From positions 1-64,000 of the forward strand of contig NZ_LT699709.1 in NCBI RefSeq assembly GCF_900155395.1: a stretch of 64,000 nt of DNA. The letters are read 5' to 3'. This document shows, one piece after another, positions 5,452 through 36,610 of the stretch. The DNA is from Merdibacter massiliensis (GTDB lineage: Bacteria > Bacillota_I > Bacilli_A > Erysipelotrichales > Erysipelotrichaceae). Numbering within the stretch: the stretch's first letter is position 1; every line of letters begins with the position of its first letter. Made by a program: the position numbers and the translations under genes. The notes under the pieces are model-generated. The model was not told the origin of the DNA. It searched no databases and worked only from the letters and a program-made list of their open reading frames with translations.

Positions 5452-7086
5452 TTACGCATATCGGCTTGGTTTTTTGCACAGCTGATAGCGATGTTCTTTG
5501 CATTCCTCTACGATATTCATCAAATGGTCAAATATACGTTCTATATCTACCAATACATTTACATACATTACGCATTGCGAAGCCGTACATCGATGTTCTT
5601 TTAAACGCTGCAGCTGATCATCCTGATACATCCGGGTCAGTGCGTCTACCTCTTGTTCAATATGTGTCATATGAGTATATTGTTCTTCTATTTCCTCAGC
5701 AGGTTGATCAAATGTATGTATTGCCTCTTTTAACAAGGAACGTAAATGCGTCAGTTCTGCAACAGATTCTTCATTCAGTGCCCCTTCTGTCACATAACTC
5801 ATCAAGTTTTTAGCGTGATCCCCTAATCGTTCAAGATCTGTCGTGATCTTAAAATAAGACATGACCGTTTCTGCATCTGATTCCGTTAATTCCAATGAAG
5901 AAGTACGATTGACATATTCGTTGATTTCATGACGGCACGCATTGATCTGCTTCTCTCTTTCAAATAATTCTTCGCTCTGTTTTTCGCTGTCACGAATCAA
6001 GGCATCTAACGACACATTCAAATTTTCAATGACCAGTCTTGTCATATAGTCGATTGCCCGCTCAAAAGAAGTGACAATGACAGCAGATGATCCTACCCCT
6101 CCCGCATGATCGATGCCGAATTCACGCAGCAGCGGCTGTTTTTCATCATTTTCTTTGATCAGCCAGCGGCTTAATTTCACCAGCTGACTGCCAAATGGAA
6201 ACAATAGAATTGCGGATACGATCTTGAAGACGACATTGGCATTGCCAATCTGTATTTTTGGATCTAAACTGGTCATCGTGATCCATTGCGAAAAAGGAAG
6301 AAATGATATGATCACCACAAAGATCAGCGTAGAAATGACATTGAACAAAAAATGGATCATCGCTGTCCGCTTGGCATCGCTGCTGCCGCCTAACGAAGCA
6401 ATCGCTGCAGTGATGCAGGTTCCGATGTTCATCCCAAAGATCAAATATAAGGAACTGTTCATCGAAATAGCACCAGTAGTCGAAAGCGATTGCAGGATGC
6501 CGATAGAAGCACTTGAACTCTGGATGATCGCTGTAAATAAAGCACCAAAAACGATACTGATCAGCGGATTTGTAAAAGTTGCCATGATATCACGAAATGC
6601 ATCTACTTCTCTTAATGGAACAACGGCCATGGACATAAGTTCCATGCCGATGAATAAGATTCCCAAGCCGGCCAGGATCAGCCCGATATGATTCAATTTT
6701 GGCCGTTTCACGAATAAAATGGCTATGACACCAATAATGGCCAGCAAACTTGCCACCATTGAAACATTTAACGCAGTCAGCATATTGGTCATGGTCGCAC
6801 CCACATTGGCACCGATGATGATCCAAACTGCTTGTTCCAATGACATAATGGAAGAATCCACAAAGGAGACCACCATAACAGTCGTTGCAGACGAGCTCTG
6901 TACCAATGCCGTTACCGCCGCTCCTACAATGATGCTGATCAGTTTATTGGAGGTCAACTTTTCCAATATGGATTTCATTGAATTTCCAGCAGTGAGTTCG
7001 AGGCCGTTTGACATCATTCGCATACCGTATAAGAACAACGCCAAACCGCCCAGCATCGAAACGATAATTTCAAGAATTGCGCCCAT
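5452..7086 (-). CDS. Na/Pi cotransporter family protein with PhoU-like tail (copy 1)
   Basis: Sodium-dependent phosphate uptake protein of 544 residues in the cell membrane. It has two inverted NptA-type repeats, each with a QSSSA signature (Q63-T69 and around Q189), embedded in about eight membrane segments up to residue 310. Residues about 340-540 form a soluble PhoU-like helical domain. The start at 7086 is preceded by GGAGGG. It lies downstream of the histidine kinase but is separated by a terminator (7201-7230) and its own upstream region with hexamer repeats, so it is probably a separate transcription unit responding to phosphate. It is a divergent paralogue of the gene at 9313. Confidence 0.88.
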   Translation of the reverse strand: MGAILEIIVSMLGGLALFLYGMRMMSNGLELTAGNSMKSILEKLTSNKLISIIVGAAVTALVQSSSATTVMVVSFVDSSIMSLEQAVWIIIGANVGATMTNMLTALNVSMVASLLAIIGVIAILFVKRPKLNHIGLILAGLGILFIGMELMSMAVVPLREVDAFRDIMATFTNPLISIVFGALFTAIIQSSSASIGILQSLSTTGAISMNSSLYLIFGMNIGTCITAAIASLGGSSDAKRTAMIHFLFNVISTLIFVVIISFLPFSQWITMTSLDPKIQIGNANVVFKIVSAILLFPFGSQLVKLSRWLIKENDEKQPLLREFGIDHAGGVGSSAVIVTSFERAIDYMTRLVIENLNVSLDALIRDSEKQSEELFEREKQINACRHEINEYVNRTSSLELTESDAETVMSYFKITTDLERLGDHAKNLMSYVTEGALNEESVAELTHLRSLLKEAIHTFDQPAEEIEEQYTHMTHIEQEVDALTRMYQDDQLQRLKEHRCTASQCVMYVNVLVDIERIFDHLMNIVEECKEHRYQLCKKPSRYA

Positions 7087-30100: not shown

Positions 30101-31765
30101 TTATTTTAACACAGCACCTTCATCAGCGGAAGATACTAACCGTGCATAACGTTCTAACCAGCCGCCTTTTACTTTCGGTTCCGGTCTTACCCATGCATCC
30201 AATCGTTTTTGCAATTCTTCAGGTGAAATTTGCAGGTTGATCGTACCTGCATCGATATCGATATCGATCAATTCACCTTCTTTGATGACGGCAATCGGTC
30301 CTTGACTTGCTGCTTCCGGTGAAACATGACCGATGGCAGCTCCACGTGTCGCTCCAGAGAAACGGCCGTCCGTGATCAATGCCACATCTTTATCCAGCTT
30401 CATGCCCGCCAATGCACTGGTCGGGTTCAACATTTCGCGCATGCCTGGTCCGCCCTTAGGTCCTTCATAACGAATGACAACAACGTCACCTTTGACGATC
30501 TTTCCATTATAGATCGCATCGATTGCATCTTCTTCGCTGTCAAACACACGTGCCGGTCCAGTATGTTTCAACATCGACGGATCTACTGCACTGCGTTTGA
30601 CTACGCAGCCTTTTGGTGCGATGTTGCCAAACAACACGGCGATACCGCCTGTTGGTGAATTTGGTGTTTCGATATCTTTGATGATCTTGTGATCCAGATT
30701 TTGTGCTTTTTCCAAATTCTCCTTGATCGTCTTTCCGGTAACGGTCATCAAGGAATCATCGATCAAGCCTTTCTTTTGCAGTTCTTTCATCACCGCCTGC
30801 ACACCGCCTGCACGATACAGATCAACGATATGATCCGGTCCTGCCGGCGCTAATTTACAGAGGTTTGGCGTAGACTGCGAAACTTCATTGATCATATGCA
30901 GATCTAATTCCACCTGGGCTTCCTTCGCAATTGCCAACAGATGCAATACCGTATTGGATGAACAGCCTAATGCCATATCACAAGCCAATCCATTGCGCAA
31001 AGACTTTGCATTGACGATATCACGAGGACGAATATTCTTTTCGACCATTTCCATGACAGCCATTCCCGCTTTTTTGGCTAACTGCATGCGGCCGGAATAA
31101 ACCGCTGGGATCGTTCCATTTCCCGGAAGTGCAATTCCCAGCACCTCACACAAACAGTTCATGGAATTTGCTGTAAACATGCCGGAACATGAACCGCATC
31201 CCGGACATGCATTTTGCTCAATGTACGTCAGTTCTTCCTGATCGATCAAACCAGCTTTTTTAGCACCGACTGCCTCAAACATCGTAGATAAGCTCATATC
31301 TTTCCCTTTGTCATTTCCCGGCAGCATGGCACCGCCGCTCATGACAACGGCAGGTAAATTAACACGCAAGGCACCCATCAACATACCAGGAACGATCTTA
31401 TCACAGTTTGGAACCAGTACCAAGCCGTCAAACCCATGGGCATTGGCCATTGTCTCTACACTGTCCGCAATCAGCTCACGGGATGCAAGCGAATATTTCA
31501 TGCCGATATGCCCCATGGCAATACCATCACAGACACCGATCGACGGTACCATGATCGGCGTACCGCCTGCCATGCGGATGCCTGCTTTAACAGCCTCGGT
31601 AATTTTATCCAGATGCAAATGTCCAGGAACGATCTCACTATAAGCAGAAACAACACCGATCAATGGCCGTGATAGTTCTTCTTCCGTTAATCCCAATGCA
31701 TAAAACAAAGAGCGCTGCGGTGCACAGGCATCGCCTTTGAGTACTCTATCACTTGGTCTACTCAT
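30101..31765 (-). CDS. ilvD: Dihydroxy-acid dehydratase
   Basis: Third common enzyme of valine, isoleucine and leucine synthesis, dehydrating 2,3-dihydroxy acids. 554 residues, normal for IlvD. Iron-sulphur ligands include the Cys in PNCDK and in [18 protein letters not shown]; the C-terminal [12 protein letters not shown] and [19 protein letters not shown] motifs are complete. Last gene of the operon, 10 bases after ilvC. Confidence 0.96.
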
Positions 31766-31775
31766 ACATTCACCA

Positions 31776-33316
<1,541 letters not shown>

Positions 33317-33328
33317 GTGTGCACCCCC

Positions 33329-34996
33329 TTAATTTCCAAAAATGATATCCTTTGCGCTCTTTCCTGGTGGAATGATCGGATATACGCAGTCATCTTTATC
33401 GATCCAGCAGTCAATGATGCAAGGCACTTTACAAGCAAGCGCTTCTCTCATGACTGGTTCGATATCCTGTCTGGTCTTGATCTGGAAACCTTTGCCGCCA
33501 AACGCTTCCGCCAATTTTACATAATCGGTCTTGCGGTCGATCGAAGTCTGTGAATAGCGATGTTCATAAAATAACGTCTGCCATTGACGAACCATGCCCA
33601 GCACATGATTATTGAATATCAGTACAATGATCGGCAGCTTCTGTGAAACAGCTGTTGCCATTTCATTCATGTTCATATGGAAACTGCCGTCACCGGTAAC
33701 CAGGATGACCGGTCGATTGGGATTGGCAATCTTTGTTCCAATAGCGGCTCCCATACCAAATCCCATCGTTCCCAGCCCGCAGGAACTGATGAAACTGCGT
33801 GGACGTGAAAACTGATAATACTGTGCCATGATCATTTGGTGCTGTCCTACATCTGTTACGATGAATGCATCTTCTCCAACGATCTTATGCAGTGATAATG
33901 CCAGATCTCTTGGATCGACAGCATCGCCTGGTTTTGGTTTCGGAAGACCTAACTTCGTTTTAAAATCTTTTAATGTCTTCGTCCATTCCTCATGTTTCAC
34001 TTCCGGCATGACGGCCAGCATATGCTTCAATATGTAGCGTGCATCGCCAACGATGGAAATGTCGGAGTGAACATTTTTTGAGATCTCGGATGCATCGATA
34101 TCAAAATGAATGATCTTTGCATTTTTACCGAATTCTTCACGATTTCCGGCTACACGGTCAGAAAAGCGGGCACCAATGGCAATGATCAGATCCGCATTTA
34201 ATGTCGCATAATTCGATACCGGTGTCCCGTGCATGCCAACCATTCCTAAATACAGATCATAATCATATGGTACAGAAGACAATCCCATGACAGAAGTACA
34301 GATTGGAATATCCATCAGTTTCGAGAATTTCAATAATTCCCTTTCTGCATGTGCACTGATGATACCGCCGCCGGCATAGATCAACGGCCGTTTCGCCTGT
34401 TTGATCACATCCATCGCATTTGCAAATTCCGTTTCATCCACTTTAGGCAGCTTGCGGATCCGATATTTCGGCAGAGGTACATATTCTGTCACTGCTGCCG
34501 TGACATCTTTTGGTATATCGATCAACACAGGACCCTTTCTGCCTGAATTGGCAATGATGAATGCTTTGCGCACGGTAGCAGCAAGATCATCTACATGCTG
34601 CACGATAAAATTATGCTTCGTGATCGGCATCGTAATGCCTGCGATATTTACTTCCTGGAAAGAATCTCTACCTAACAGATCATTTGAGACATTTCCTGTG
34701 ATTGCTACAACTGGTACGCTGTCCATATAGGCTGTAGCGATCCCCGTTACCAAATTTGTAGCTCCTGGTCCGCTGGTTGCTAAACAGACACCTGTTTTAC
34801 CTGTGCTTCTGGCATATCCATCGGCTGCATGAGCGGCTCCCTGTTCATGTGACGTCAATATATGACGAATGTCATTTTGCCGTTCATAGAGTGCATCATA
34901 GATATTCAATACAGAACCGCCTGGATAACCAAAGATCGTATCTACGCCCTGGTCGATCAGTGCCTGAATCAGTATCTGTGAACCATTCATCTTCAT
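33329..34996 (-). CDS. ilvB: Acetolactate synthase large catalytic subunit
   Basis: Thiamine diphosphate enzyme joining two pyruvates, or pyruvate and 2-oxobutyrate. 555 residues with GYPGGSVLNIYDAL and the catalytic Glu in SHEQGAAHAADGYAR (about residue 50). The FAD-binding middle domain is present, and the ThDP/Mg motif GDGSFHMNMNE lies near 435-445 in the C-terminal domain. It lies 15 bases after ilvA. Confidence 0.96.
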   Translation of the reverse strand: MKMNGSQILIQALIDQGVDTIFGYPGGSVLNIYDALYERQNDIRHILTSHEQGAAHAADGYARSTGKTGVCLATSGPGATNLVTGIATAYMDSVPVVAITGNVSNDLLGRDSFQEVNIAGITMPITKHNFIVQHVDDLAATVRKAFIIANSGRKGPVLIDIPKDVTAAVTEYVPLPKYRIRKLPKVDETEFANAMDVIKQAKRPLIYAGGGIISAHAERELLKFSKLMDIPICTSVMGLSSVPYDYDLYLGMVGMHGTPVSNYATLNADLIIAIGARFSDRVAGNREEFGKNAKIIHFDIDASEISKNVHSDISIVGDARYILKHMLAVMPEVKHEEWTKTLKDFKTKLGLPKPKPGDAVDPRDLALSLHKIVGEDAFIVTDVGQHQMIMAQYYQFSRPRSFISSCGLGTMGFGMGAAIGTKIANPNRPVILVTGDGSFHMNMNEMATAVSQKLPIIVLIFNNHVLGMVRQWQTLFYEHRYSQTSIDRKTDYVKLAEAFGGKGFQIKTRQDIEPVMREALACKVPCIIDCWIDKDDCVYPIIPPGKSAKDIIFGN

Positions 34997-35011: not shown

Positions 35012-36214
35012 CTATTCTACTGTAATGTCATATCCATTTTCTTTTAACTTTTCGAGCATCTTTGCCCCATGTTCTTTACTGCTGACCTCCACGCCAATAT
35101 GGATGATCGTTTCATTCAAGCCTAGGTCTGCCTGAATGCGATCATAACGAACTTCGATGATATTTGCATTCACCTCATGCAGGATCCTTGCCATCTTTTC
35201 CAATGAACCAGGCACATCCAGCATCGGTGTCTTAAACTTCATGTTGCGTCCACGTGTAACAAGACCTTTTTCCACCACTTTATGGATAAAGGAAACATCT
35301 ATATTTCCGCCGGATAATACACATACGACTTTTTTGCCTGCCACATCGATCTTGTGATTTAACACCGCTGCCAGGGAGCTTGCTCCAGAAGGTTCTACGA
35401 CCTGTTTTTCCCGTTCCAGCAGCAATAAGATGGTAGAGGCAATTTCATCATCGCTCACCCTCACCATTTCATCTACATTCTCTTGAATGATTTTTACGGT
35501 CAATTCGCCCGGATTCATGACGGCGATGCCATCCGCAATGGTATTTACACTTGGTGTAGAACAATGCTTTCCTGCTTTAAATGAACGAACGATTGCATCT
35601 GCTCCTTCTGCTTGTACACCAACGATCTTGATGTGCGGATTGATCTGTTTGGCATACAAACTGATTCCAGACAACAATCCTCCCCCTCCGGCAGGTACGA
35701 CGATTATATCTGCATCCGGAAGATCCTGCAATATTTCATAAGCGATCGTTCCCTGCCCGGCAATGACATCCTCATCATCAAAAGGATGAATAAAAGTAGC
35801 GCCTCTTTCCTTTTGAATTCTTTTTGCTTCTTCATAACAAGCATCATAATTATCCCCGGCAAGGATGACTTCTGCACCATAGCCCTGCGTAGCACTCACT
35901 TTTGCGATCGGCGTGCTTTTTGGCATAACGATCGTTGCATGCATCCCTAACTGTGCGCTTGCATAACTCACGCCTTGCGCATGATTGCCGGCACTGCTGG
36001 CAATGACATTCATGCACGATCCCGTTTCTTTTAATTTTGCCAGTTTATTATAAGCACCTCGTACTTTGAATGATCCTGTCTTCTGGCGATTCTCACATTT
36101 GAGATACAGTTCACAACCGCTCATTTGTGAAAAAGTATTTGAACTGCTTACATGAATATTGTGAATCTTCCCTTGCAGCCGCTTCGCCGCTGCTTCAACA
36201 TCTTTGCTTTCCAT
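35012..36214 (-). CDS. ilvA: Threonine ammonia-lyase (biosynthetic)
   Basis: PLP enzyme making 2-oxobutyrate for isoleucine. 400 residues: catalytic domain with the PLP lysine in TGSFKVRGA (about residue 48) and phosphate-binding PAGGGGLLSG (about 175-184), followed by a single C-terminal ACT-like domain from about 325, shorter than the two-domain E. coli enzyme. CAGGAGG precedes the ATG. It is the first gene after the leader-peptide attenuator, so it and the whole ilv operon are under that control. Confidence 0.94.
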   Translation of the reverse strand: MESKDVEAAAKRLQGKIHNIHVSSSNTFSQMSGCELYLKCENRQKTGSFKVRGAYNKLAKLKETGSCMNVIASSAGNHAQGVSYASAQLGMHATIVMPKSTPIAKVSATQGYGAEVILAGDNYDACYEEAKRIQKERGATFIHPFDDEDVIAGQGTIAYEILQDLPDADIIVVPAGGGGLLSGISLYAKQINPHIKIVGVQAEGADAIVRSFKAGKHCSTPSVNTIADGIAVMNPGELTVKIIQENVDEMVRVSDDEIASTILLLLEREKQVVEPSGASSLAAVLNHKIDVAGKKVVCVLSGGNIDVSFIHKVVEKGLVTRGRNMKFKTPMLDVPGSLEKMARILHEVNANIIEVRYDRIQADLGLNETIIHIGVEVSSKEHGAKMLEKLKENGYDITVE

Positions 36215-36235: not shown

Positions 36236-36268
36236 AAAAAAGCAGCTCTCCAATCGGTAGCTGCTTTT
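36236..36268 (-). terminator. Attenuator terminator upstream of ilvA
   Basis: On the minus strand AAAAGCAGCT and AGCTGCTTTT flank a loop of 11 bases and end in TTTTTT, 22 bases before the ilvA start. Bases of the 5' arm (36261-36268) also belong to the competing antiterminator. Confidence 0.88.
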
Positions 36269-36349
36269 CTTTCAATCCTTAACATCTTCACCACAACGGC
36301 AAAAGAATCTGTTATCGGAAAACCAAACGGTTTCTTGAAAGAAAAACAG
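36261..36349 (-). promoter_or_regulatory. Antiterminator structure of the ilv attenuator
   Basis: mRNA segment CUGUUUUUCUUUCAA (36349 to 36335) is complementary over 15 bases, with one U-G pair, to UUGAAAGAAAAGCAG (36275 to 36261). The first segment lies in leader codons 17-22; the second contains the 5' arm of the terminator. The two folds exclude each other. A small AACC-GTTT-GGTT hairpin sits between them. Confidence 0.8.
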
Positions 36350-36398
36350 ACTTTTTAAGGACTAGAATAATAATAATGACTGCTACATTGATCATCAT
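36312..36398 (-). CDS. ilvL: ilv operon leader peptide
   Basis: A 28-codon frame from ATG at 36398 to TAA at 36312. Fourteen residues are branched-chain: 5 Ile, 5 Val and 4 Leu. Codons 8-11 are four successive Ile (ATT), followed by Leu-Val-Leu. GGAAGTGG lies about 8 bases upstream. Scarcity of charged Ile, Val or Leu tRNA would stall the ribosome on codons 8-14, leaving codons 17-22 free to form the antiterminator; fast translation would cover them and allow termination. The symbol is by analogy with the enterobacterial leader. Confidence 0.82.
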   Translation of the reverse strand: MMINVAVIIIILVLKKSVFLSRNRLVFR

Positions 36399-36446
36399 AG
36401 AGGGTCCACTTCCTTTCATTCTACCGTGGTTTTTGGTGTTGTCCTT

Positions 36447-36475
36447 AGTTTAAATCTTTTTAAAAGACATGTCAA
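36447..36475 (-). promoter_or_regulatory. Promoter of ilv operon
   Basis: Minus strand TTGACA (36470-36475), exactly 17 bases, and TAAACT (36447-36452). The start of transcription would be near 36440, about 40 bases before the leader ATG. Confidence 0.8.
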
Positions 36476-36610
36476 TATATTTCATTGAAATTTTCAGAAA
36501 ATGTTTCTTATATTTTCAATTTTATTGTAACCGCTATATTTTATCTGTTGTATCTCTTTCCAAATCACATTCTTTTTTATATAATTACATTCATGAAAGG
36601 GATGAAATAC

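Follow-up and report, generated by a model that had tools for sequence, protein, structure and literature searches.

The attenuators of the enterobacterial ilvGMEDA, ilvBN and leu operons act in the same pathway, and by the same logic, as the leader described here; their segment 1 overlaps the control codons. At our locus, in contrast, segment 1 is the ribosome-binding site of the leader, and the leader sequence is apparently unrelated.

Leader-peptide control of ilv genes is already known in Bacillota, and the element we describe is a new example. For Rli60 of Listeria monocytogenes, attenuation was shown by mutating the start codon, ribosome-binding site and terminator (PMC5864092). Rli60 resembles the element proposed here in its phylum, its branched-chain-rich leader peptide, its four segments with 2:3 pairing opposed to 3:4 pairing, and its ribosome-mediated action (PMC5864092). 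It differs in that the leader is 13 amino acids long, precedes ilvD of an ilv-leu operon and is joined by CodY as a second layer (PMC5864092), whereas here the leader has 28 codons, ilvA comes first, the leu genes lie elsewhere under a T-box and there is no CodY. The ilv-leu leader of S. aureus is supported by suppressor mutations and reporters (PMC5794164). Located upstream of ilvDBNC-leuABCD-ilvA, it is like ours in having a leader of similar length (26 amino acids) with an Ile run, a terminator before the first gene and no T-box, but it is Leu-responsive, CodY is present, and the antiterminator proposed for it ties up the poly-U tail instead of the terminator stem (PMC5794164).

Other leaders have been described from prediction. 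Those of Lactococcus and Streptococcus ilv genes are cited as predicted (PMC5864092, PMC5794164). In Erysipelotrichales, the order to which our locus belongs, predicted His-leader attenuators also combine a run of cognate codons with a terminator and an antiterminator, but the codons are for histidine and the operon is his (PMC9413887). The use of leader peptides in place of T-boxes in Firmicutes was noted earlier (PMC2965389). The original prediction for this locus placed ilv attenuators of this kind mainly in enterobacteria and some actinobacteria, with Bacillota mostly using T-boxes. The first half needs revision, as Listeria and S. aureus are experimental Bacillota cases (PMC5864092, PMC5794164). 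T-boxes are abundant in the genome studied here (23 matches). T-boxes (RF00230) likewise sense uncharged tRNA and choose between terminator and antiterminator; at our locus, sensing would instead occur by translation. A literature search, with most subscription papers outside its scope, found no report of an ilv leader peptide in Erysipelotrichaceae.

We analysed a 64,000-nt stretch of Merdibacter massiliensis DNA (the window). The anatomy, conservation and pairing described below indicate that ilvABNCD is very probably under ribosome-mediated transcription attenuation through a leader peptide, in the classical manner. The cognate signal would be isoleucine, and probably valine and leucine too.

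Anatomy of the ilvABNCD leader region

The following features, all on the minus strand, make up the leader region and operon.

36447–36475 (−): sigma-70-type promoter, TTGACA-17-TAAACT (hexamers and 17-nt spacer)
36411–36417 (−): leader Shine-Dalgarno sequence, GAAAGGA
36404–36417 (−): segment 1, leader Shine-Dalgarno sequence plus spacer (GAAAGGAAGTGGAC), complementary to segment 2
36312–36398 (−): leader peptide ORF, 28 codons, MMINVAVIIIILVLKKSVFLSRNRLVFR and stop; start at 36398 or 36395; supported by homologous leaders and synonymous changes
36357–36380 (−): control codons 7–14, Val-Ile-Ile-Ile-Ile-Leu-Val-Leu; I/L/V/M run kept in 11 of 11 leaders
36335–36349 (−): segment 2, antiterminator 5′ arm, within codons 17–22
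36261–36275 (−): segment 3, antiterminator 3′ arm, overlapping the terminator 5′ arm
36236–36268 (−): intrinsic terminator (segments 3:4), stem AAAAGCAGCT/AGCTGCTTTT plus T6, about −14.8 kcal/mol
35012–36214 (−): ilvA, threonine ammonia-lyase, first gene of the operon (TIGR01127)
33329–34996 (−): ilvB, acetolactate synthase large subunit (TIGR00118)
32825–33316 (−): ilvN, acetolactate synthase small subunit (TIGR00119)
31776–32771 (−): ilvC, ketol-acid reductoisomerase (TIGR00465)
30101–31765 (−): ilvD, dihydroxy-acid dehydratase (TIGR00110)

Gene identities are those of NCBIfam equivalogs, each scoring above its cut-off. Transcription is predicted to start near 36440 (−), giving a leader of about 205 nt that is mostly taken up by the ORF and segments 1–4. 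Ile, Leu and Val account for 14 of the 28 leader residues. The antiterminator consists of 15 pairs, one of them G-U. Positions 36267–36261 are common to it and to the terminator (arms 36267–36259 and 36247–36239, T6 at 36241–36236), making the two structures mutually exclusive. Between the end of the T6 hairpin (36236) and the ilvA start (36214) lie 21 nt. The original prediction, made from the letters of the DNA, was correct on all these elements, which lie at or near the coordinates it gave: the promoter and its spacing, a 28-codon leader that is half branched-chain, a 15-bp antiterminator joining codons 17–22 to 36261–36275, a T6 terminator sharing bases with it, and the downstream ilvA-ilvBN-ilvC-ilvD genes.

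Just past the leader stop codon, 36281–36311 contains a conserved AACAGATT...TTTTG stretch, in which CAGAT and TTTT are invariant. It could base-pair either to TCTGTT in segment 2 or inside a small hairpin.

This anatomy is improbable by chance. When the upstream RNA was shuffled 2,000 times with its dinucleotides preserved, no shuffle reached a helix of 15 bp (the longest had 13), and the window's 2,293 short-ORF starts include just one, that of the leader, with an I/L/V run of at least 8. The energy of the antiterminator duplex was matched in 0 of 1,000 shuffles, and the folding z score was −2.8.

Conservation and pairing in related genomes

A covariance model (R1) detected the leader element in 11 of 273 genomes of the family, the window's included, in 4 genera. 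Among the 50 family genomes that carry ilvC, 12 have the closely related form (at least 85% identity), and 11 of these 12 have the leader; in the twelfth (G088), the contig edge cuts inside ilvA and the leader region is not reached. DNA similarity searching alone recovered, apart from the window, four true relatives and two matches (L007 and L008) that were rejected as not being ilv leaders. Extending the covariance-model search to the wider order yielded no genome from outside the family. Within the family, the more distant ilvB/ilvC operons showed no such leader in their upstream regions.

Across the 11 genomes, leaders are 26–28 codons long, and in all of them a run of 7–10 I/L/V/M codons ends 2 codons before segment 2 (3 in L098). 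Within groups, changes in the run are mainly synonymous or exchange I, L, V and M, and the segment 2 codons are nearly fixed. The promoter hexamers and 17-nt spacer are kept in 10 of the 11 genomes (window included), which are all those in which the region is covered, and the terminator is kept in all 11. Conservation of the small frame and pairing in relatives had been put forward as a check on the original prediction, and it was found for the frame, promoter spacing, antiterminator and terminator alike.

Outside the family, no comparable leader was found upstream of ilvA in Butyricicoccus, Ruminococcus or other Clostridia, with one exception. L019, an Oscillospiraceae metagenome-assembled genome, has the same five-gene order ilvABNCD behind the leader MIIRAISVVVVVIITGGRRTFFRTGYQTV (5829–5973). 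Its sequence is different and its layout is the same, with a VVVVVII run, an antiterminator of −20.5 kcal/mol and a terminator of −25.5 kcal/mol.

In each of the 11 genomes the antiterminator duplex has an energy between −15.8 and −18.4 kcal/mol. When segment 2 of the window's group (group 1) was combined with segment 3 of genus g9, the duplex averaged −11.7 kcal/mol, about 5 kcal/mol worse than the roughly −17 with segment 3 of its own group; the reverse swap averaged −15.7 kcal/mol and cost only about 1. In anchored columns, one antiterminator (2:3) pair changed on both sides, from U-A to G-C, and 91% of antiterminator cells were paired, compared with 50–65% in slid controls.

The three-part geometry of the original prediction proved incomplete, as a fourth, upstream segment at the ribosome-binding site of the leader (Shine-Dalgarno sequence plus spacer, 36417–36404) can form a helix of 14 pairs with segment 2. 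With the segment 1 register picked from the predicted duplex, 96.4% of 1:2 cells were paired (8 distinct sequences), versus 46–66% in slid controls. One 1:2 pair stays standard through A-U, U-G, C-G and G-U, so that the varying residue of segment 2 retains a pairing partner in segment 1 as well as in segment 3. Since the leaders fall into essentially two clades, with one two-sided pair per helix, independent covariation events are few.

Ribosome position and a model for attenuation

A ribosome at codons 8–12 has a footprint that ends short of segment 2, and one in transit over roughly codons 13–25 covers it. A ribosome on the stop codon (36314–36312) has its rear edge near 36330 and leaves segment 2, which ends at 36335, uncovered. 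These distances fit the original prediction for a ribosome at the control codons and for one in transit, but not for one that has gone on to the stop codon, which leaves codons 17–22 uncovered.

Folding, also proposed as a check, gave a divided answer, the antiterminator in nascent RNA and the terminator in full-length RNA. At full length, equilibrium folding of the window RNA yielded the terminator in almost all states, even with a ribosome stalled on the Ile codons; as a mechanistic test, equilibrium folding with a ribosome mask discriminates poorly. RNA folded before segment 4 emerges forms the antiterminator, except when segment 2 is covered or when, as in some of the calculations, it pairs upstream. 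For the window, nascent folding gave the antiterminator with or without a ribosome. Because the terminator prevails in the full-length fold and the antiterminator in the nascent fold, the choice between them must be made kinetically, as it is in classical attenuators.

A model in keeping with these data begins with RNA polymerase starting near 36440 and a ribosome entering the 28-codon leader. When charged tRNA-Ile (and tRNA-Leu and tRNA-Val) is ample, the ribosome would run through codons 8–14 and sit on segment 2. With segment 2 occupied during synthesis of segments 3 and 4, 3:4 would form and transcription would stop at T6. When Ile is short, the ribosome would stall at codons 8–11 with its front edge before segment 2, allowing the 15-bp 2:3 helix to form as segment 3 emerges and transcription to enter ilvA. 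If no ribosome is present, segment 2 may pair with segment 1, leaving the terminator free, with termination as the predicted outcome. As a tentative variant, which we regard as possible but rather unlikely, the ribosome-binding site of the leader would itself be the protector. Segment 2 would then pair either with the Shine-Dalgarno region, with the leader untranslated and the terminator on, or with segment 3, with readthrough as the result.

Other regulators, alternative readings and implications

The statement in the original prediction that no T-box sequence is present at the locus was upheld by Rfam searches of the window and the genome. No T-box (RF00230) was detected in the window at the gathering score or on contig 4 in a genome search at E <= 0.001; elsewhere, the same genome has the 23 T-box matches. 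One of these (L158:172–419, G000:C20:7671–7918) lies directly upstream of leuA-leuC-leuD-leuB and has a CUC (Leu) specifier. For leuA the match fell short of the TIGR00973 cut-off, and the other three genes (leuC, leuD and leuB) were named by eye from translations. In genus g8 of the same family, a T-box upstream of an ilvA homologue (L148:3106–3344) has the specifier AUC (Ile). Both specifier codons were read by eye off the Rfam alignment.

CodY (PF06018) was absent from the window's genome and 10 relatives, while the B. subtilis and L. lactis controls were positive. A CodY-box-like palindrome with one mismatch to AATTTTCWGAAAATT occupies 36489–36503, 13 nt upstream of the −35. It is found in the same place in a second locus of the window's genus (L097) and not in other genera, and is possibly the operator of another regulator. 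We rejected CodY as a second layer of control because the protein is absent from the 11 genomes and the palindrome occurs only in the window's genus.

Could the region be a 5′ terminator that is constitutive or controlled by a protein, with the small frame there by accident? Most states do fold preferentially into the terminator, and the near-perfect palindrome close to the promoter makes some protein control possible. However, the frame persists in relatives through synonymous changes and keeps a fixed offset to segment 2, the antiterminator pairing is kept across clades, and protein control by CodY is contradicted by the absence of the protein from this genome and the relatives searched. We consider this explanation improbable. 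It is very improbable that the product of the ORF is instead a small hydrophobic (membrane) peptide with a function of its own and that the terminator is an unrelated regulator. In favour of this reading, the VIIIILVL run is hydrophobic and there is conservation in the C-terminal part, KSVFLS. Against it, the conservation of KSVFLS is at the nucleotide level, where the residues coincide with segment 2, and later residues vary freely; moreover, the C-terminal part of the L019 leader is unrelated while its pairing logic is the same.

A T-box or metabolite riboswitch that merely overlaps a small ORF would be in line with the many T-boxes of this genome and the Ile T-box before ilvA in the other genus. 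Yet neither the window nor the sampled related loci carrying the leader matched any Rfam family, and the ORF and segments 1–4 already account for most of the leader RNA, so that we find such an overlap scarcely credible.

The leader-peptide attenuator that we favour adds for Erysipelotrichaceae a conserved, apparently undescribed isoleucine leader attenuator. It also sets up a contrast within one genome, in which ilvABNCD would be under a translated leader and leuACDB under a Leu T-box. If the variant in which segment 2 pairs with the Shine-Dalgarno sequence were true, leader translation and antitermination would compete for one RNA segment, in a phylum whose transcription is thought to be runaway. 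Bacillota are classed in this way at phylum level (PMC13323073), and runaway transcription would weaken ribosome-based attenuation unless the polymerase pauses. Given that classification (PMC13323073), such leaders would be convenient tests of how closely ribosome and polymerase keep together over the first 200 nt.
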